A stretch of 64,000 bases of DNA. It comes from Saccharomonospora piscinae. Lineage in GTDB: Bacteria; Actinomycetota; Actinomycetes; Mycobacteriales; Pseudonocardiaceae. The notes below the pieces were generated by a model. It had not been told where the DNA came from. It was given only the letters and a program-made list of their open reading frames with translations, and searched no databases. Position numbers and translations under genes: made by a program. This document shows, in pieces, positions 32,220-49,476 of this stretch. Each line of letters begins with the position of its first letter. Within the stretch, counting starts at the first letter, position 1. The stretch covers positions 496,001-560,000 of the forward strand of contig NZ_VCEK01000002.1 of the NCBI RefSeq assembly GCF_005862235.1. Reading direction: 5' to 3'.

Positions 32220-32270
32220 GCGAAGGAACCCGGAAAGCGCCTGTTTGGGTGCGCTTCCGGGTTTCTTCGC
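32220..32270 (+). terminator. Terminator after trxA
   Basis: An extended inverted repeat of about 20 nt per arm (32220-32240 and 32251-32270), with cores AACCCGGA/TCCGGGTT and AGCGC/GCGCT, forms a long GC-rich stem around CTGTTTGGGT. The T-run is short, as often in actinomycetes. Confidence 0.75.
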
Positions 32271-32422
32271 GTTGGGCCATCCGTGTGGGTGACAGCGGGG
32301 CAGAGCCCTCCGTCCTCACGCTCCGTCGGCACGGCACAATGGAGGCCGCAACAGGCCCCCGGCCCACCAAGAGTTCTGCACACCACGAGCGCACCCAGTG
32401 CCCAAGGAATAGCGAGGAGTGC

Positions 32423-33565
32423 ATGCGGGTACTCCGCCGCGGCGACACCGGACCGGAAGTCGCCGAGATCAGGTCCATGCTCTCGGCTCTGGACCTCCTC
32501 CCAGCCGAGGCCAACGGACACGGATCGTTCTTCGACCTGGCGGTCGAGCACGCCGTCCGCGCCTTCCAACAACAACGCGGGCTGATCACCGACGGTGTGG
32601 TCGGCCCTGCCACCTATCGGGCACTGCGCGGTTCGACCTACCACCTCGGCAGCAGGCCGCTGGGGTACTCGGTGTCGACACCCGTGCACGGTGACGACGT
32701 CTTCGCGCTGCAGGAGCGACTCACCGAGCTCGGTTACGACGCGGGCAGACCGGACGGCGGGTTCGGCCCGCAGACCGAACGCGCGCTGAAGAACTTCCAG
32801 CGCGACTACGGGCTGGTCGTCGACGGCATCTGCGGGCCGGGGACCGTGCGGGCGTTGCGGCAGCTGTCGCCGCGCGCGCGTGGTGGCCGGCCGGTGTTCC
32901 TTCGGGAGCAGGAGCATCTGCGCAGGGCCGGCCCCAGGCTGCGAGGCAAGCGCATCGTGATCGACCCCGGCCACGGTGGTCCCGACCTCGGGGTGTCCGT
33001 GAACGGCGTCAACGAGTCCGACATCGCGTGGGACCTCGCACGCAGGCTGGAAGGCCGGATGAAGGCCACCGGCATGGAGGCGCTGGTCTCGCGCGGACCG
33101 GACCACAGCCCGTCGGAGTTGCAGCGGGCGCAGTTCGCCAACGACGCGGGTGCGGACCTGTTCCTCTCCCTGCATTCGGACGGCAACCGCTCACCGCAGG
33201 CGCAGGGCGTGGCGAGCTTCCACTTCGGCACCGGCAACGGCACCACCTCCACGGTGGGGGAGCTGCTGGCCGGCTACATCCAGCGGGAACTCGCCGCGAG
33301 GACCAGCCTGCTGGACTGCCGCACCCATCCGAAGACCTGGGACATCTTCACGCGTACGCGGTGCCCCGCTGTGCGGGTGGAGATCGGTTACCTCACCAAC
33401 GGTCAGGACCGCGCCCGGCTGTCCGACCCCGCGTTCCGCGACGTGGTGGCCGAGGGTGTACTCATCGCCGTCAAGCGGCTGTACCTGCTCGGGGAGAACG
33501 ACCAGCCGACGGGCACCTTCACCTTCGCCGACGTGCTGGCCCACGAACTGCTGCGAGCCGAGTAA
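32423..33565 (+). CDS. cwlM: CwlM-like peptidoglycan-binding N-acetylmuramoyl-L-alanine amidase
   Basis: A 380-residue protein with two PG_binding_1 repeats (about 1-68, AVRAFQQQRGLITDGVVGPAT; about 85-148, FGPQTERALKNFQRDYGLVV) and an Amidase_3 domain (about 175-365). Zinc ligands His184 (IDPGHGG), Glu198 and His251 (LSLHSDGN) and catalytic Glu320 (RVEIGYLTN) are all present. There is no signal peptide, as for mycobacterial CwlM, which is a cytoplasmic, PknB-phosphorylated activator of MurA rather than a free hydrolase. GAGGAG ribosome-binding site before the ATG. Synteny (after trxA, before parB) matches Rv3915. Confidence 0.9.
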   Translation: MRVLRRGDTGPEVAEIRSMLSALDLLPAEANGHGSFFDLAVEHAVRAFQQQRGLITDGVVGPATYRALRGSTYHLGSRPLGYSVSTPVHGDDVFALQERLTELGYDAGRPDGGFGPQTERALKNFQRDYGLVVDGICGPGTVRALRQLSPRARGGRPVFLREQEHLRRAGPRLRGKRIVIDPGHGGPDLGVSVNGVNESDIAWDLARRLEGRMKATGMEALVSRGPDHSPSELQRAQFANDAGADLFLSLHSDGNRSPQAQGVASFHFGTGNGTTSTVGELLAGYIQRELAARTSLLDCRTHPKTWDIFTRTRCPAVRVEIGYLTNGQDRARLSDPAFRDVVAEGVLIAVKRLYLLGENDQPTGTFTFADVLAHELLRAE

Positions 33566-33566
33566 C

Positions 33567-33604
33567 TCCACAGTTGTCCACCCCCACCGGGGGACAACTG
33601 TGGA
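33567..33604. repeat. 13-bp inverted repeat after cwlM with DnaA-box-like arms
   Basis: The arms TCCACAGTTGTCC (33567-33579) and GGACAACTGTGGA (33592-33604) are perfectly complementary around a GC-rich loop that can itself pair (CCC/GGG). The stem begins 2 bp after the cwlM stop and could end its transcript. The arms read as degenerate DnaA boxes (TTGTCCACC, TGTGGATGG). Confidence 0.7.
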
Positions 33605-33616
33605 TGGTTCGACTAC

Positions 33617-33669
33617 TTGTCCACAGCCCTGTGGATAACTTCACTACTTATCCACAGGGCTGTGGGTCA
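33617..33669. repeat. 18-bp inverted repeat containing three consensus DnaA boxes
   Basis: CCACAGCCCTGTGGATAA (33621-33638) is repeated inverted and perfect at 33648-33665 with a 9-bp spacer. It holds DnaA boxes TTGTCCACA (33617-33625), TGTGGATAA (33630-33638, reverse of TTATCCACA) and TTATCCACA (33648-33656), plus a weak one at 33661-33669. Each arm is itself a short palindrome. It sits between the convergent cwlM and GNAT genes, so it may be a shared terminator, a DnaA-binding site, or both. Confidence 0.7.
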
Positions 33670-34308
33670 TCAGGCCCGCACCACGGTAGGTTCGGCCGTA
33701 CTCACGCTCACCTGCCCGAGCAGCTTCTCCAGCGCCGCCTCGACATCGGCCTTCCACGACAGCCCGGAGCGCAACTCCAGGCGCAACCGCGGCCAGCGGG
33801 GATGCGGTCGCACCGTCTTGAACCCCACGCTGCGCAGGAAGGCGGCGGGCACCACGCAGACGTGCTCCTCATCCCCGGACTCGGGAGCCGCGTCACCGAA
33901 CGCCTCCACCGCGCGGACCCCGCGCCGGGTGAGGTCGGCGACGACGGCCTGAATCAGCGCCCGCCCCATCCCGCCGCCACGGAACTCCGGGAGCACGTGA
34001 AACGCCGTCAGCAGCACCGCGTCGGCACTCGGCGGTGACGTGGGGAAGGCCCCCGACCTCGGCACCGCGTTCGGCGGCGCGTACAGCACGAAACCCACCG
34101 GAAGCTCGTCGCTATACACGACCCGCCCGCACGAGCCCCACTCCAGCAGCACGGACGACACCCAGGCTTCCTTCTCCACCTCGGTCTCGCCGTACTCCTC
34201 GGCCTGCTCCTTCAGGTGCGGAGCGACCTCCCAGAACACGCAGCGACGACAGCTCAACGGGAGCTGTTCGAGGTTGTCCAGCGTGACGCCGACGACCCGT
34301 CGCGACAC
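33670..34308 (-). CDS. GNAT family N-acetyltransferase
   Basis: A 212-residue protein of the Rv3916c-like group. Seen: RRCVFWEVAP near the N-terminus, and the acetyl-CoA-binding core LTAFHVLPEFRGGGMGRALI with V-x-x-EFRGxGxG spacing. GTG at 34308 is preferred: GGAGG lies just upstream and the product begins MSRRVVGVTLDNLEQLP, as I recall for homologues; an ATG at 34359 is an alternative. It is convergent with cwlM across the DnaA-box repeats and divergent from the aminotransferase gene. The acceptor substrate is unknown. Confidence 0.85.
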   Translation of the reverse strand: MSRRVVGVTLDNLEQLPLSCRRCVFWEVAPHLKEQAEEYGETEVEKEAWVSSVLLEWGSCGRVVYSDELPVGFVLYAPPNAVPRSGAFPTSPPSADAVLLTAFHVLPEFRGGGMGRALIQAVVADLTRRGVRAVEAFGDAAPESGDEEHVCVVPAAFLRSVGFKTVRPHPRWPRLRLELRSGLSWKADVEAALEKLLGQVSVSTAEPTVVRA

Positions 34309-34521
34309 CGAACCTCCCAAGTCGTTCCACACGTGGTCGCCGGCTCGCCCCGCAAGCATCGACCGCCGAAATCCCGCCCGAGCATATGGGTCTGTGAGAA
34401 GCCCCGCCAAGCCCGAGGCACGCCCCGGGATCGAAGTTACACTCGAGTCACGCCCGACCAGCAGGGGACAGCCCGCGACGACCAGACAAGCTTCCTTCGT
34501 GAAGCGGAAGCGAAGTGTGCG

Positions 34522-35862
34522 ATGACTTCCTCCCAGCCGCCTCACCTGCCGCAGCACCGGCAGGGCTCCGAGCCGGGTCGACAGAACCTCGACCCCCATC
34601 TCGACCGTTACGCCGCGCGTACCGCGGGCATGACGGCGTCGGAGATCCGAGCGCTGTTCGCGGTCGCGAGCCGCCCCGAGGTCGTCTCCCTGGCGGGAGG
34701 CATGCCGAACCTGACCGCCCTTCCGCTCGACTCGCTGTCGACACAGATGGCCGAGGTCGTGGCCGACGAGGGACTGGTGGCGCTGCAGTACGGCTCGGCG
34801 CAGGGCGTGCCCACGCTGCGGGAGCAGATCTGCGACGTGATGGCGATGGAGGGAATCACCGCCCATCCCGACGACGTGGTGGTGACGGTCGGCTCGCAGA
34901 TGGGTCTGGACATGGTGACCAGGCTGTTCTGCGATCCCGGCGACGTCATCATCGCGGAGGGCCCGTCGTACGTGGGCGCGCTCGGTTCCTTCGCCGCCTA
35001 CCAGGCGAACGTCGTCCACGTCACGATGGACGACGACGGGTTGGTGCCCGACGCGCTGCGCGCAGCGCTCGCCCAGGCGAAGAACGCGGGTCAGCGGGTC
35101 AAGTGCCTGTACACGATCCCGAACTTCCACAACCCCGCCGGTGTGACGCTGTCCGGCCCGCGAAGAGCCGAGATCGTGGCGATCTGCGCCGAGCACGACG
35201 TGCTGGTGATCGAGGACAACCCGTACGGGCTTCTCGGCTTCGACGGGCAGACCTACCCGTCACTGCGCTCGCTCGACCCCGAGAACGTCGTCTATCTCGG
35301 TTCGTTCTCCAAGACGTTCGCGTCCGGACTGCGGGTGGGCTGGGTCCTGGCGCCGCACGCGGTGCGCGAGAAGCTCGTGCTGGCCGCCGAGTCCGCCACC
35401 CTGTGCCCGCCGACGCTGAACCAGCTCGTGGTGTCCAAGTACCTGAGCACCCACGACTGGAAGGGCCAGATCAAGACGTTCCGCGAGAACTACCGCGAGC
35501 GACGTGACGCCATGCTGTCGGCGCTGGAACAGCATCTGCCCTCGGGCTGCACCTGGACACGCCCCGACGGCGGTTTCTACGTGTGGGTGACGGTCCCCGA
35601 GGGCATCGACACCAAGGCCATGCTGCCGAGGGCCGTCACGGCACGGGTGGCGTACGCTTCCGGCACCGGCTTCTACGCCGACGGCTTCGGCAGCAGGCAG
35701 ATGCGCCTGTCGTTCTGCTATCCCACTCCGGAACGCATCCGGGAGGGCGTGCGGCGGCTCGCGGGGGTGCTGGAGTCCGAGCAGGAACTCGTGCGCACCT
35801 TCGGTCACGTCAGCACCCGCTCGGTGTCGGGACCGCAGTTCCCCGGACCCGACACGGCCTAG
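34522..35862 (+). CDS. PLP-dependent aminotransferase (fold type I, MocR/2-aminoadipate type)
   Basis: A 446-residue aminotransferase. Seen: SLAGGMPNLTALPLDSLSTQ, LQYGSAQGVPTLREQI, the cofactor-binding PNFHNPAGVTLSGPRR, IEDNPYGLLGF, and the Schiff-base Lys264 in GSFSKTFASGLRVGW. This class includes 2-aminoadipate and valine-pyruvate aminotransferases; the substrate is not set by sequence. There is no N-terminal GntR domain, so it is an enzyme and not a MocR regulator. A TACACT -10 box at 34438-34443 is a candidate promoter. The neighbouring ddl gene follows 49 bp downstream, suggesting amino-acid supply for the cell wall as a possible link. Confidence 0.9.
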   Translation: MTSSQPPHLPQHRQGSEPGRQNLDPHLDRYAARTAGMTASEIRALFAVASRPEVVSLAGGMPNLTALPLDSLSTQMAEVVADEGLVALQYGSAQGVPTLREQICDVMAMEGITAHPDDVVVTVGSQMGLDMVTRLFCDPGDVIIAEGPSYVGALGSFAAYQANVVHVTMDDDGLVPDALRAALAQAKNAGQRVKCLYTIPNFHNPAGVTLSGPRRAEIVAICAEHDVLVIEDNPYGLLGFDGQTYPSLRSLDPENVVYLGSFSKTFASGLRVGWVLAPHAVREKLVLAAESATLCPPTLNQLVVSKYLSTHDWKGQIKTFRENYRERRDAMLSALEQHLPSGCTWTRPDGGFYVWVTVPEGIDTKAMLPRAVTARVAYASGTGFYADGFGSRQMRLSFCYPTPERIREGVRRLAGVLESEQELVRTFGHVSTRSVSGPQFPGPDTA

Positions 35863-42702: not shown

Positions 42703-42722
42703 TGTGGATAACTTGTGGATAC
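42703..42722. promoter_or_regulatory. DnaA boxes upstream of dnaA
   Basis: TGTGGATAA (42703-42711, reverse of the perfect TTATCCACA) and TGTGGATAC (42714-42722, one mismatch) are 11 bp apart on the same face of the helix. They are well placed for autoregulation of dnaA. Confidence 0.75.
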
Positions 42723-42810: not shown

Positions 42811-44625
42811 GTGTCTGAGCACCAGCTGAACCTGGCTGTGGTGTGGGAGCAGGTCGTCGCCGAACTCTCCGACGGAACACTGTCTCCCCAGCAACGTGCG
42901 TGGATGCGGGTCACCCGCCCGATCGGTCTGCTCGACGGTACCGCGCTGCTGGCGGCCCCGAGCGACTTCGCCAAGGAGGCCATCGAACGCGCGCTGCGCG
43001 GGCCCATCACCTCGGCGCTGTCGCGGCACATCGGCCGGGACGTCTCCCTCGCGGTCAAGGTCGACTCCGCGGAGAGCGCGCCACCCCTCGGGCCGCAGGG
43101 AAACGGTGCCGGCCCCGGTTCCGAGGCGCCCCCGTCGACCTCGCCGGTACCCCCGGGCCGATACGGCAGCACCGGGCCGGCCACGCCACCGGAGCGCCAC
43201 CCGAGGTCGTCGGGCGAGGACACCATCATCATCCCCGCGATCCGGCCGCCGCTGCAGGAACACGTCGAGCCACGACGCGGGGCGACGCCGAGGCCGCACC
43301 CACCCGCGATGCCCTCCCGCCCCGGCCAGTCGACGGCCCCGCCGTCAGGACACCCGCAGCACCCACAACACCCGAGCCATCCAGGGCACCCCGGGCACCC
43401 AGCGCGTCCCGGAGCGTCGGCGGGTTCCTCCTCGTCGACCTCCTCCCACGCCACCGACGGGGACGACGCCGACGAGGAGGTCGACGAGGAGGGCGAGGCC
43501 CTGGCCGCCGTCCACGAGATCTGGCCGACCTTCTCCGGCCAGCCGATCGCGGGCCAGCCCTACACGGCGCCGGCGCAGCCCCAGACGTCGAAGACCCGGC
43601 TGAACGAGAAGTACACGTTCGACACGTTCGTCATCGGGGCCTCCAACCGGTTCGCCCACGCCGCGGCCGTCGCGGTCGCCGAGGCGCCGTCGCGCGCCTA
43701 CAACCCGCTGTTCGTGTGGGGGGAGTCCGGGCTCGGCAAGACCCACCTGCTGCACGCGGTCGGTCACTACGCGCAGCGGCTGTTCCCTGGCATGCGGGTG
43801 CGCTACGTGTCGACCGAGGAGTTCACCAACGACTTCATCAACTCCCTGCGCGACGACCGCAAGGTCGCGTTCCAGCGGCGCTACCGCGACATCGACATCC
43901 TCCTCGTCGACGACATCCAGTTCCTCGAAGGTAAGGAAGGCACCCAGGAGGAGTTCTTCCACACCTTCAACACGCTGCACAACGCGAACAAGCAGATCGT
44001 GGTGTCGTCGGACCGTCCGCCGAAGCGGCTGGAGACGCTGGAGGAACGGCTCCGCACGCGGTTCGAGTGGGGACTGATCACCGACATCCAGCCGCCCGAG
44101 CTGGAGACCCGCATCGCGATTCTGCGGAAGAAGGCGGCGCAGGACCGCCTGGCCGTGCCCGGCGAGGTGCTGGAGTTCATCGCCGCCCGCATCGAGGCGA
44201 ACATCCGCGAGCTAGAGGGCGCGCTGATCCGCGTCACCGCGTTCGCCTCTCTCAACCAGCAGCCGGTGGACGTCGGGCTTGCCGAGATCGTGCTCCGCGA
44301 CCTCATCCCGGACTCCCAGGCCCCCGAGATCAGCGCGCCCACCATCATGGGTGTGACGGCCGAGTTCTTCGACGTCACGATGGACGACCTGTGCGGGCCG
44401 GGAAAGACCAAGGCGCTCGCGACGGCCCGGCAGATCGCGATGTATCTCTGCCGCGAGCTGACCGACATGTCGCTGCCCAGAATCGGGCAGACGTTCGGCG
44501 GCCGGGACCACACCACGGTCATGCACGCGGACAAGAAGATCCGCAAGGAGATGGCGGAGCGCCGCCGCATCTACGACCAGGTGCAGGAACTCACCTCGCG
44601 GATCAAGCAGCGCGCTCGCCAGTGA
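42811..44625 (+). CDS. dnaA: Chromosomal replication initiator DnaA
   Basis: A 604-residue AAA+ initiator. Domain I (1-85) has [20 protein letters not shown]; domain II (about 88-260) is an unusually long disordered linker rich in Pro, His, Gly and acidic runs; domain III has Walker [16 protein letters not shown] (about 304-312) and Walker [16 protein letters not shown]; domain IV ends with the DNA-reading [20 protein letters not shown]. The linker makes it about 100 residues longer than mycobacterial DnaA. GTG start; a strong terminator follows, then oriC. Confidence 0.98.
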
Positions 44626-44645
44626 ACCGGCGTTCGTCGCCCTGA

Positions 44646-44672
44646 CCGTGCCCGGCCGGGCACGGTTTTTTT
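44646..44672 (+). terminator. Intrinsic terminator of dnaA
   Basis: CCGTGCCCGGCCGGGCACGG (44646-44665) is a perfect GC-rich hairpin followed by seven T residues (44666-44672), 20 bp after the dnaA stop. Confidence 0.95.
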
Positions 44673-44743
44673 GTCTCCACTCCCGCCGACGCCGGACCGC
44701 CGTGCCGACCGGCGAAAAAAGTCACCCCTGCTGGTTTCGGCCT

Positions 44744-45175
44744 CTATCCACAAGGGACCCGAATACTCCATACACAGACGAGTGAATGCCTTGACGTGGA
44801 CAAAGAGCGAGTTGTCCACAGTAGTCCACAACCCATCCACAGGTCTTCCACAGGTTGCCCACAGTTGTGTCCACAACTAGCCCCCGACCGGCGCCCGGCG
44901 CCTCGACCCTGTGGGAAGGCCGTGGACAACCTGGGTACAACTCGCCCCAAATCTGTGGATGCCGCTGTGGACAACTTGGCCTGAATGTGGACAGGTTGTT
45001 GTTGGCGCTCATCCATTCACAGGCCAGCCAAGTTGTCCACGTGTTGTCACCAGGTGTGTCCACAGCCCGCCACGCTGAGTGACCTGCGGCGATCCGGGTT
45101 ATCCACACAATCCACAGCCCCTACTACTACGGCTGAACTAAGTTCTCTTCAGAGAAGAAAAGAAGAAAAACAGCT
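44744..45175. other. oriC: Chromosomal origin of replication oriC
   Basis: The 800-bp dnaA-dnaN gap has no gene but many DnaA boxes. Perfect or near: CTATCCACA 44744, TTGTCCACA 44812, TAGTCCACA 44822, CCATCCACA 44833, TCTTCCACA 44844, TTGCCCACA 44855, GTGTCCACA 44867, TGTGGATGC 44954, TGTGGACAA 44966 (reverse of TTGTCCACA), TGTGGACAG 44986, TTGTCCACG 45033, GTGTCCACA 45056, TTATCCACA 45099, CAATCCACA 45108. Orientation switches from forward to reverse near 44920 and back near 45030. The left part is dense with forward boxes; the right end carries the unwinding element. 45176-45425 holds only the dnaN leader. Confidence 0.95.
45099..45156. other. Basal unwinding element: DnaA boxes, trinucleotide run and purine-rich tract
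   Basis: Two adjacent DnaA boxes (45099-45107 and 45108-45116) are followed by a short GC step and CCTACTACTAC (45120-45130), i.e. TAG trinucleotides on the other strand. This is the DnaA-trio arrangement described for Bacillus and other bacteria. An AT-rich, purine-biased stretch continues to 45171, with a small TTCTC/GAGAA dyad at 45143-45156. Confidence 0.65.
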
Positions 45176-45425
45176 CGGCGCGAAGTTGGGGACAAGTCCG
45201 CTCGACGACCCCTCGCGCAACCCGTGGCCCGACATGACGGCGGTGGACGGCACGCTCTACCGTGGAAGTCCACAGGCCGGTCAGCTCGGTGGCCGGTGAG
45301 CGGTTGCCCACCCCGGCAACGCGCCGCCGCCCTGCGAACCCCACACACTTCGCCGGGAGTTCTCCCACCGGCGGTGTGTCGATCTCTCGAGCACCAACCG
45401 GCTCGGCTGTCGAAAGGATGGGCGC

Positions 45426-46568
45426 ATGAAGATCCGCGTCGAACGCGACGGGCTTGCCGACGCCGTCGCCTGGGTGGCCAGGAGCCTCCCGTCGAGGCCG
45501 CCCGTTCCCGTGCTGGGTGGAGTGCTGCTCGACGCGGGCGGTGAGGGTGGCTCCACGGCCGGGGACGCACTGACCGTGTCCGGGTTCGACTACGAGGTCT
45601 CCGCCACCGTCGGGGTGCCGGCCACGATCGCGGACGGCGGGCGCACGCTCGTCTCGGGACGGCTTCTCGCCGACATCACGAAGGCGCTGCCCGCCCAGCC
45701 GGTCGACATCGCGGTCGACGGCGCTCGGGTGTCCATCACCTGCGGAAACGCTCGGTTCAGCCTGCCCACCATGCCGGTCGAGGACTACCCACAGCTCCCG
45801 GCCCAGCCCGACCTCGCTGGCGAGGTCTCCGGCGACGCGTTCGCGCAGGCCGTCGCCCAGGTCGCGGTGGCCGCGGGCAAGGACGACACGCTGCCCATGC
45901 TCACGGGCATGCGAGTGGAGATCACCGGCGACACGTTGACGCTCGTCGCGACCGACCGCTTCCGTCTCGCGATGCGCGAGTTCACCTGGCAGCCCGCCGA
46001 CGGCATGGCCGACTCGGCGGTGCTCGTGCCCGCCCGCACCCTCGCCGACGCGGCCAAGGCACTCGGTTCCGCGGGCGCCACGGTGCAGATCGGGCTCGCG
46101 GGTGGCGACGGCCTCCTCGGCCTGGCCGGGTCCGGCAAGTACACGACCACCCGGCTGCTCGACGCCGAGTTCCCGCCGTACCGCCAGTTGCTGCCGTCGG
46201 ACCACTCCTCGCGTGCCGTGCTGCACGTGCCCGCGCTCACCGAGGCGATCAAGCGTGTGTCGCTCGTCGCCGAGCGGGGCACCCAGGTCAGGCTGGAGTT
46301 CGGGGACGGCACACTCCGGTTGTCGGCAGGCGGCGACGACGAGGGAAGCGCGGAGGAGGAGCTTCCCGTCGACTACGAGGGGGAACCGGTGACCATCGCG
46401 TTCAACCCGAGTTACTTCGTCGACGGGCTCGCCGCTCTGCACGCCGAACGGGCCGAGTTGACGTTCACCACGCCCAACCGGCCCGCGTTGATCAAGCCTG
46501 CCGACGACAACGGCGACGTCGTGCCCGGCTATCTCTACTTGTTGATGCCGGTTCGGCTTCCGGGCTGA
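45426..46568 (+). CDS. dnaN: DNA polymerase III beta subunit (sliding clamp)
   Basis: A 380-residue clamp with three similar domains. Seen: [50 protein letters not shown] with [11 protein letters not shown], and the C-terminal partner-binding end [14 protein letters not shown]. It encircles DNA and tethers polymerase III and repair enzymes. AAAGGA ribosome-binding site 8 nt before the ATG. First gene of the dnaN-gnd-recF row. Confidence 0.97.
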
Positions 46569-48671: not shown

Positions 48672-49476
48672 AACAGAACACACAGCGCGGTTCACGCAAC
48701 GAAACGTAACCGCTGACGGGCGAGTTGTGCACCGATCTGGGGATAAGTCTGTGGATAGTGTGGATAACTCAGCTAGCGCGTTACAACCCGGGGTGATCGG
48801 CGCCCCGAAAGAGGGCAAGAATCATCCACAGGCAGGCGATTTTGGCGGGGGAACCCCCAGGCGTGGAACGGAGCGTAACAGCGGAACTGCGCCGAACGAG
48901 ACGGGGGGTCACCCGTCGCAGAGTGCGCTGAGTGCCCCTGGGGACAACCATCCACAGGGTCGTGACCTCGCCAAGGCCGCGCTCCAGGCCGCGAAGGACC
49001 GGGCCGCGGCCCGGGGGACCGAACCGGGTGTGCGCAGGCCCGGCGTGCCGAGGAGCACGGCGGCGCGGGGCACGGCCCAGCACCCCCGGCGGCGTCGCTG
49101 GTCGGGGCCCGGCTTCGACGAGCGTGATCCGCAACCGTTCTCCCGTCTGATGTCGAGCATGGCCACTCAGCTCGGCTGGAGTGCGCGGCTGGCGAACGGC
49201 CGGGTGTTCGGCCAGTGGACCCGCCTGGTCGGCTCCGAGGTCGCCGAGCACGCGCAACCGGTGGCGCTGAACGACGGCGAGCTGACCGTTCGCGCCAGTT
49301 CCACCGCATGGGCCACCCAGTTGCGCTTGCTGCAACGGCAGCTACTGGCAAGAATCGCAGCGGGGGTCGGCCACGGTGTGGTCACGAGAATGCGAATCCA
49401 GGGACCGACGGCTCCGAGCTGGCGCAAGGGGCCGCGGCACGTGCCAGGGAGGGGTCCACGCGACACCTACGGTTGA
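48664..49476 (+). CDS. DUF721 (DciA-like) replication protein
   Basis: A 270-residue protein. Residues about 150-250 form the DUF721 domain ([20 protein letters not shown], then [40 protein letters not shown]), related to DciA, the DnaB-loading factor of bacteria without DnaC. The first ~140 residues are hydrophilic and low-complexity. GTG 48664 overlaps the recF stop by 8 bp. The start of this coding region contains DnaA boxes, so part of the N-terminal sequence may be shaped by DNA function. Synteny equals Rv0004. Confidence 0.88.
48750..48956. other. DnaA-box cluster inside the DUF721 gene
   Basis: TGTGGATAG (48750-48758) and TGTGGATAA (48759-48767, reverse of perfect TTATCCACA) are tandem; TCATCCACA (48832-48840) and CCATCCACA (48948-48956) follow in the opposite orientation. 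All four fall in the low-complexity 5' part of the gene. Confidence 0.65.

Follow-up and report, generated by a model that had tools for sequence, protein, structure and literature searches.

Site A, a compact array of DnaA boxes between a cwlM-like amidase gene and a GNAT acetyltransferase gene of Saccharomonospora piscinae, keeps its core boxes, their orientation, and their spacing in relatives from several genera, and its core recurs at a second place on the chromosome (site B). Taken as a whole, site A is probably a chromosomal DnaA-binding control site outside oriC to which a terminator hairpin has been added in part of the genus, and this is the best explanation that we can offer. The analysis was centered on the window, a stretch of 64,000 nucleotides from the genome here called G000, and positions given without a contig are those of the window. 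Among the best 10 matches each out of 49, 76, and 19 open-licence papers on DnaA boxes in connection with Saccharomonospora, Prauserella, cwlM, cydB, or parS, no title or opening of an abstract described either site.

The DnaA-box array between cwlM and GNAT

The preliminary description of this DNA had reported two perfect inverted repeats, with arms of 13 and 18 bp, between the cwlM-like and the GNAT gene, and both the repeats and their location were borne out, the two genes converging on them (Table 1; protein families were assigned by Pfam only). The first repeat, IR1, was called automatically with 16-nt arms at 94% (33567-33582 / 33589-33604) around its perfect 13-bp core. Only imperfect boxes were found in it, TTGTCCACC at 33574 (+) and CCATCCACA at 33599 (-), and IR1 is probably a terminator. 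By eye, an IR1-like repeat was present in four of the eight genus relatives compared (G002, G005, G009, and G001) and absent from the other four (G003, G004, G006, and G010).

Table 1. Coordinates of the site A features and of the neighboring genes and oriC in the window
Feature	Position	Strand	Basis or remark
cwlM-like amidase gene	32249..33565	+	Pfam Amidase_3, PG_binding_1; converges from left
IR1 hairpin	33567..33604		perfect 13-bp arms, 33567-33579 / 33592-33604
DnaA box 0, TTGTCCACA	33617..33625	+	motif match
IR2 hairpin	33621..33665		18-bp arms, 33621-33638 / 33648-33665, 100% complementary, 9-nt loop
DnaA box 1 (core), TTATCCACA	33630..33638	-	motif match, genus conservation
Spacer between divergent core boxes, 9 bp	33639..33647		length nearly fixed, sequence variable
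DnaA box 2 (core), TTATCCACA	33648..33656	+	motif match, genus conservation
DnaA box 3 position, weak TGTGGGTCA in window genome	33661..33669	-	completes symmetry
GNAT acetyltransferase gene	33670..35196	-	Pfam Acetyltransf_1; converges from right
oriC, dnaA-dnaN gap with scattered DnaA boxes	44626..45425		Pfam dnaA/dnaN, box search

The second repeat, IR2, had been said to hold three exact DnaA boxes in alternating orientation. The alternation is as described, and all three boxes fit the form TT(G/A)TCCACA that is given for actinobacteria in passages of PMC4210621 and PMC4285127 (Table 1 of the latter), but they are not three copies of TTATCCACA, since the third is TTGTCCACA, listed as the Streptomyces form of the box in the same table of PMC4285127. 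With the weak fourth box included, the layout in the window genome is (->)4(<-)9(->)4(<-). Each arm of IR2 is itself a small palindrome, as had been noted, although an interrupted one (CCACAG-CC-CTGTGG or its complement). The 4-bp linkers between the boxes are complementary (GCCC/GGGC), and the perfect symmetry of IR2 results from these linkers together with the mirror arrangement of the boxes. Folding of the region gave z-scores of -9.5 on the + strand and -9.0 on the - strand, and 0 of 200 shuffles was equally stable. In the window, five copies of TTATCCACA were found where 0.02 would be expected; the whole 4.9-Mb genome has 16 copies and none of the reversed pattern. For TTGTCCACA, with 44 copies genome-wide against 17 for the reversed pattern, the enrichment was less clear.

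The dnaA gene starts at 42811 and ends at 44625, and the dnaN ORF starts at 45426. Site A is thus 9.1 kb from the dnaA start and ~11 kb from oriC, distances that apply to the window genome only and that agree with the 9 to 11 kb estimated earlier. With three TTRTCCACA boxes within 40 bp at this distance, it constitutes a DnaA-box cluster outside oriC. The DnaA protein encoded in the window has the DNA-binding domain Bac_DnaA_C (Pfam), and boxes of the TTRTCCACA form are concentrated near the origin, 15 of the 60 in G000 lying within 50 kb of oriC (oriC's own included) against 1.2 expected. Pairs within 60 bp number 16 among these boxes; in six of them the spacer is 9 (two divergent, four direct), which may be a preferred DnaA-DnaA distance in this organism. 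The direct 9-bp-spaced pairs are at C4:39302, C5:184953, C6:87178, and C6:408764 of G000.

Other box arrangements were noted in the same part of the chromosome. Adjacent boxes TTATCCACA and GTATCCACA at 42703-42722, ~100 bp upstream of dnaA, probably serve dnaA autoregulation. A tight box-like run (TTATCCCCA, CTATCCACA, and TTATCCACA) at 48738-48767 follows a RecF/SMC-like gene and lies upstream of gyrB. A same-direction cluster of four + strand TTRTCCACA boxes occupies 225 bp at window -1552 to -1336 (G000:C4:494448-494672; L031), just upstream of a gene for a DnaB-type replicative helicase (Pfam DnaB). Through it DnaA may control dnaB, or the cluster may be datA-like.

The geometry of site A invites comparison with the DARS loci of Escherichia coli. 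If site A were DARS-like, its convergent boxes 4 bp apart would bring the AAA+ domains of DnaA head to head, leading to ADP release and promoting initiation. The convergent pairs 33617+/33630- and 33648+/33661- do resemble DARS boxes I and II (13 versus 14 bp from start to start), and it is this opposed I/II pair that a passage of PMC8682772 names as the basis of DARS action. Furthermore, there are two conserved sites per genome, as with DARS1 and DARS2, which likewise share a small set of boxes at fixed spacing with a convergent pair among them. However, the cores that we measured in E. coli K-12 read (->)5(<-)3(<-) at both loci, in agreement with the layout in section 20 of the review PMC5742627, whereas site A has spacings of 4 and 9 bp, its third box is reversed, and its second convergent pair is weak in the window genome. 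IHF and Fis sites are used at DARS2 in addition, according to part of PMC8682772. Membership of site A in the DARS class was rejected on these differences in spacing and orientation; a DARS-like effect is possible, and we regard it as an unlikely account of the site.

Conservation of boxes and of base pairing

The element directly follows cwlM in nine of the 12 genus genomes. In the remaining three (G007, G008, and G011) it is found 2.3 to 3.6 kb from cwlM, with several ORFs in between in G008, and ~0.1 kb from the 3' end of the GNAT gene, which is the neighbor that stays with site A in relatives. Mean identity among nine genus genomes was 97.5% in the boxes, compared to 65.1% in the spacer, 63.5% in the flanks, and 85.6% in the 3' coding end of cwlM. 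Eight of the nine core box pairs were invariant in this alignment, and the ninth was changed on both sides in S. saliphila, so that both TTATCCACA boxes become TTGTCCACA. Divergent TTRTCCACA pairs with a spacer of 3 to 18 were present at 20 sites in the 12 genomes (12/12), 12 at site A and eight at site B, with a spacer of 9 in 16 and 10 in four, while the reversed-pattern control gave 0 in the same genomes; in the window genome the exact pair occurs at just two places. Full TTRTNCACA matches were seen for box 0 in three of the 12 genomes (the window's own, G002, and G006) and for box 3 likewise in three, the respective box being imperfect in the other nine.

Alternatively, site A could do no more than end transcription on both sides, as a bidirectional terminator whose stem reads as DnaA boxes by chance, with no role for DnaA. 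Two strong hairpins are indeed located between the converging genes, and a stable hairpin downstream of a gene is one mark of an intrinsic terminator. Covariation is also seen within the genus: in the outer stem, four of nine pairs had changes on both sides in the nine-genome alignment, 93.0% of the cells paired compared to 29 to 48% when the arms were slid, and the covariation score was reached by 0 of 500 shuffles, although further pair types were not above shuffles (434/500). The covarying linkers indicate that the hairpin itself is also selected in the genus, where the linkers pair at 6/6 positions in seven of the 12 genomes, at 4/6 in one, and at 2/6 in four. No T-run was found after the stem within 33000-34200; actinobacterial terminators often lack one. 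The best Rfam match in 33300-33900, a plastid 3'UTR family at 38.5 bits with a gathering threshold of 51.5, was taken to reflect nothing more than the chance similarity of a long hairpin. Against a terminator alone stand the boxes themselves, which are far better conserved than their surroundings and whose sole paired change gives another DnaA box.

What decided against a terminator as the sole explanation was the fate of the core stem outside the genus. DNA 3' of the GNAT gene was collected by gene homology, with no motif, from 110 of 120 family genomes (10, one of them without a match, are outside the survey) and searched for a divergent pair with a spacer of 8 to 10, one mismatch to TTRTNCACA being allowed. 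Such a pair was found beside GNAT in 21 of the 110 genomes and eight of 45 genera (g1 5/5, g31 4/4, g32 4/4, g37 2/2, g42 1/4, g49 2/2, g57 1/1, g60 2/2), site A being missing in 37, and mononucleotide shuffles of the GNAT-flanking DNA gave a pair in 0 of 2200. Fifteen of the 21 genomes (six genera) had no box mismatch; one mismatch was seen in all four of g32, the one g42 case, and one of the two g37. When spacers of 0 to 30 were allowed, 18 pairs had a spacer of 9, two of 8, and two of 10, and four further pairs at 20, 21, and 29 were due to an extra box beside the core. Conservation spans the whole genus and seven further genera.

Fourteen of the 16 non-genus genomes in this survey had at least one mismatch breaking the 9-bp core box stem, with boxes and spacing kept (G184 of g49 was counted as non-genus, although its module sequence is that of 'Saccharomonospora sp. 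CUA-673'). Both boxes were still exact TTRTNCACA matches in eight of the 14, where the break was a G-G and box 2 reads TTGTGCACA; boxes of the form TT[A/T]TNCACA tolerate any base at N, as stated in a passage of PMC8682772. Box 3 was full in 10 of the 16. Two of five loci examined, those of Prauserella shujinwangii (L218) and P. rugosa (L213), had no inverted repeat of at least 10 nt. L124 and L217 have a 16-nt inverted repeat (94%) of their own, made by boxes 2 and 3, which lends the terminator some support and means that relatives outside the genus have not all lost pairing; in these two the symmetry arose around another box pair (2/3, not 1/2). A further hairpin of 33 nt was seen in L124. 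The linkers paired at 0 to 4 of 6 positions in 14 non-genus site A rows (one a duplicate), most of which had been picked by a pattern that demanded box 3; because of this bias, non-genus rates were taken from the GNAT survey.

We consider a plain terminator decidedly unlikely. The preliminary description had set a terminator against a DnaA site, and the comparison of relatives favors the DnaA reading: boxes, orientation, and spacing are kept, and core pairing is mostly lost outside the genus. As alternatives, however, the two do not hold up, since the hairpin of the genus is real and covarying and a terminator would be an added function.

We also asked how widely the module occurs. A looser three-box pattern was found in 37 of 297 family genomes and its reversed control in 0, while a divergent pair with any spacer of 0 to 30 was common (136 of 297), with many other spacers and places. 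Among 147 other genomes sampled as a class control, 12 had a pair (spacer 3 to 18), with scattered spacers and a spacer of 9 at one of 14 sites; a general actinobacterial spacing rule was not seen in this sample. The strict module pattern, TGTGGAYAAN{9,10}TTRTNCACAN{3,4}TGTGGAYAA, matched 43 stretches in the genome collection. Sixteen were of Pseudonocardiaceae type (10 Prauserella, two titled Saccharomonospora, two Amycolatopsis, one Actinokineospora, and one MAG), of which 14 were at site A, one at site B, and one elsewhere. The remaining 27 included 14 on a locus with dnaA, so that the same module is often found at replication origins elsewhere, supporting a DnaA role.

Two further observations came from these searches. 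Halanaerobium and relatives carry the three-box module on dnaA loci (L193, L202, L211, L214, L220, L224, L227, and L229). Many of the listed g32 genomes have another conserved divergent box pair, with a ~29-bp spacer and inner CGATCGAGC (L079-L084 and related matches), and similar spacers were seen in g42, g59, and g40; at L081, the single locus inspected, this pair is downstream of a LacI-like ORF.

Site B and its parS neighbor

Site B is located at G000:C4:649850-649876, between cydA and cydB (Pfam), on the other side of oriC and 111 kb rightward from where dnaA starts, and has the same core spacer as site A. It was present in all 11 genus genomes with an assembled gap, with one mismatch in one box in G004 and G010 (G002, whose contig ends inside cydB, is outside this count), and in nine of 25 cydB loci fetched from other genera in a survey of the best 30 of 115 genomes with a cydB match. 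The genes flanking site B are codirectional and its linkers are mostly unpaired (0-2/6 in eight genus rows, up to 5/6 in others), and the presence of the same core in such a place further argues against a plain terminator.

The position of site B upstream of cydB would also suit a transcription element controlled by DnaA, acting as a roadblock or repressor for its neighbors (on readthrough at site A and on cydB at site B), and DnaA is described as a transcription factor at some Bacillus sites in part of PMC4447404. Site A, however, is at the 3' ends of both neighboring genes and therefore at no ordinary promoter site, and its position in G007, G008, and G011 means that no promoter of cwlM or GNAT is near; we regard this reading as very unlikely. 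The palindrome could also serve another protein or a cruciform, with the likeness to DnaA boxes being secondary, or both sites could be what is left of a dispersed repeat. This would fit the strong symmetry in the window genome but is hardly credible given that most non-genus relatives have lost the core symmetry and kept box-like sequence and spacing, that the exact divergent pair is confined to two genome places, and that boxes concentrate around oriC.

A perfect parS core, TTTCACGTGAAA, follows site B in eight of the 11 genus genomes. In G000 it is found at C4:649893-649904 (L087), 16 bp from site B, and is the sole exact copy in the genome; six further sites are one mismatch away from it, three of them near parAB (window 38870, 39641, and 39710). 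In G007, G008, and G011, a GGAACA-CC-TGTTCC palindrome takes the place of the parS core at site B. It could be hypothesized that Saccharomonospora, Prauserella, and nearby genera have an undescribed two-site switch bracketing oriC, with the right module fused to parS, that couples DnaA occupancy to ParB loading and times initiation against segregation. This proposal is tentative and its truth doubtful; if the coupling were true, initiation and segregation would be linked in one place.

Possible mode of action and comparison with known systems

For the reading that we prefer, a DnaA-binding control site, we infer DnaA binding, an effect on initiation, termination, and shielding from the sequence. 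The core would consist of two divergent DnaA boxes with a 9-bp spacer, with outer boxes 3 to 4 bp away that point back, and DnaA monomers on this fixed array would form a small, defined complex. Site A would be doubled right after initiation and site B soon after, leaving less free (or active) DnaA, and the lowered DnaA could help to block a second early start. Passages of PMC5742627 and PMC5295017 say that datA-like clusters draw on free or active DnaA, and E. coli concentrates DnaA boxes near oriC, according to section 6 of PMC12371093. With three or four boxes, a site would titrate little DnaA unless their affinity is high. Further points against this reading are the absence of site A from most of the surveyed genera, the frequency of divergent pairs with other spacers in the family, the imperfect boxes 0 and 3 of most genus genomes, the direct 9-bp-spaced pairs elsewhere in G000, the less clear enrichment of TTGTCCACA, and the selection on the hairpin.

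Where the linkers are complementary, as in part of the genus, site A would also be a perfect hairpin that probably ends cwlM and GNAT transcription and that would shield the DnaA complex from RNA polymerase. In E. coli, the effect of datA or DARS on a plasmid disappears when the site is strongly transcribed (PMC5010248, section 10), and a gap between converging genes that holds a terminator would therefore be a good place for such a site. A hairpin built out of the boxes would be an economical arrangement. The boxes appear to be common to several genera and full linker pairing to be limited to part of one, and site A thus suggests a route by which a DnaA site and a terminator hairpin could merge into one sequence. 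To our knowledge, the control that limits replication to once per cycle in actinobacteria is poorly known outside Streptomyces and mycobacteria. A compact, easily edited site of fixed geometry, conserved at two homologous places, would make it possible to ask directly whether this phylum counts DnaA (titration) or switches it (as by datA and DARS).

Site A had earlier been likened to the clusters of Streptomyces and to datA/DARS. An oriC-proximal cluster it is, and one of a pair, but it lacks the datA/DARS geometry. Like datA, which limits initiation, it is a non-coding DnaA-box cluster near oriC; the essential boxes of datA, however, share one direction and need IHF (as given in part of PMC5742627), while those of site A alternate, and membership in this class was rejected as well.

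In Bacillus subtilis, where several DnaA-box clusters likewise occur outside oriC, removing six oriC-proximal clusters led to early initiation (Okumura et al. 2012, cited in a passage of PMC5295017), but a later passage of the same article calls the role of these clusters not significant. The excerpts of PMC5295017 describe no fixed two-site module with a 9-bp divergent core.

The clusters of Streptomyces coelicolor resemble site A, as far as they are described in citations, in being actinobacterial DnaA boxes outside oriC. Three of them, D78, H24, and H69, were reportedly the subject of work by Smulczyk-Krawczyszyn et al. in 2006. No Streptomyces title was among the 43 strict module matches, indicating that these clusters do not have the fixed module in its strict form. 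The S. coelicolor clusters are cited as repressing untimely initiation in part of PMC5742627, and on the best reading of its sequence, site A would be a site of the same kind as the DnaA-box clusters of Streptomyces and Bacillus.
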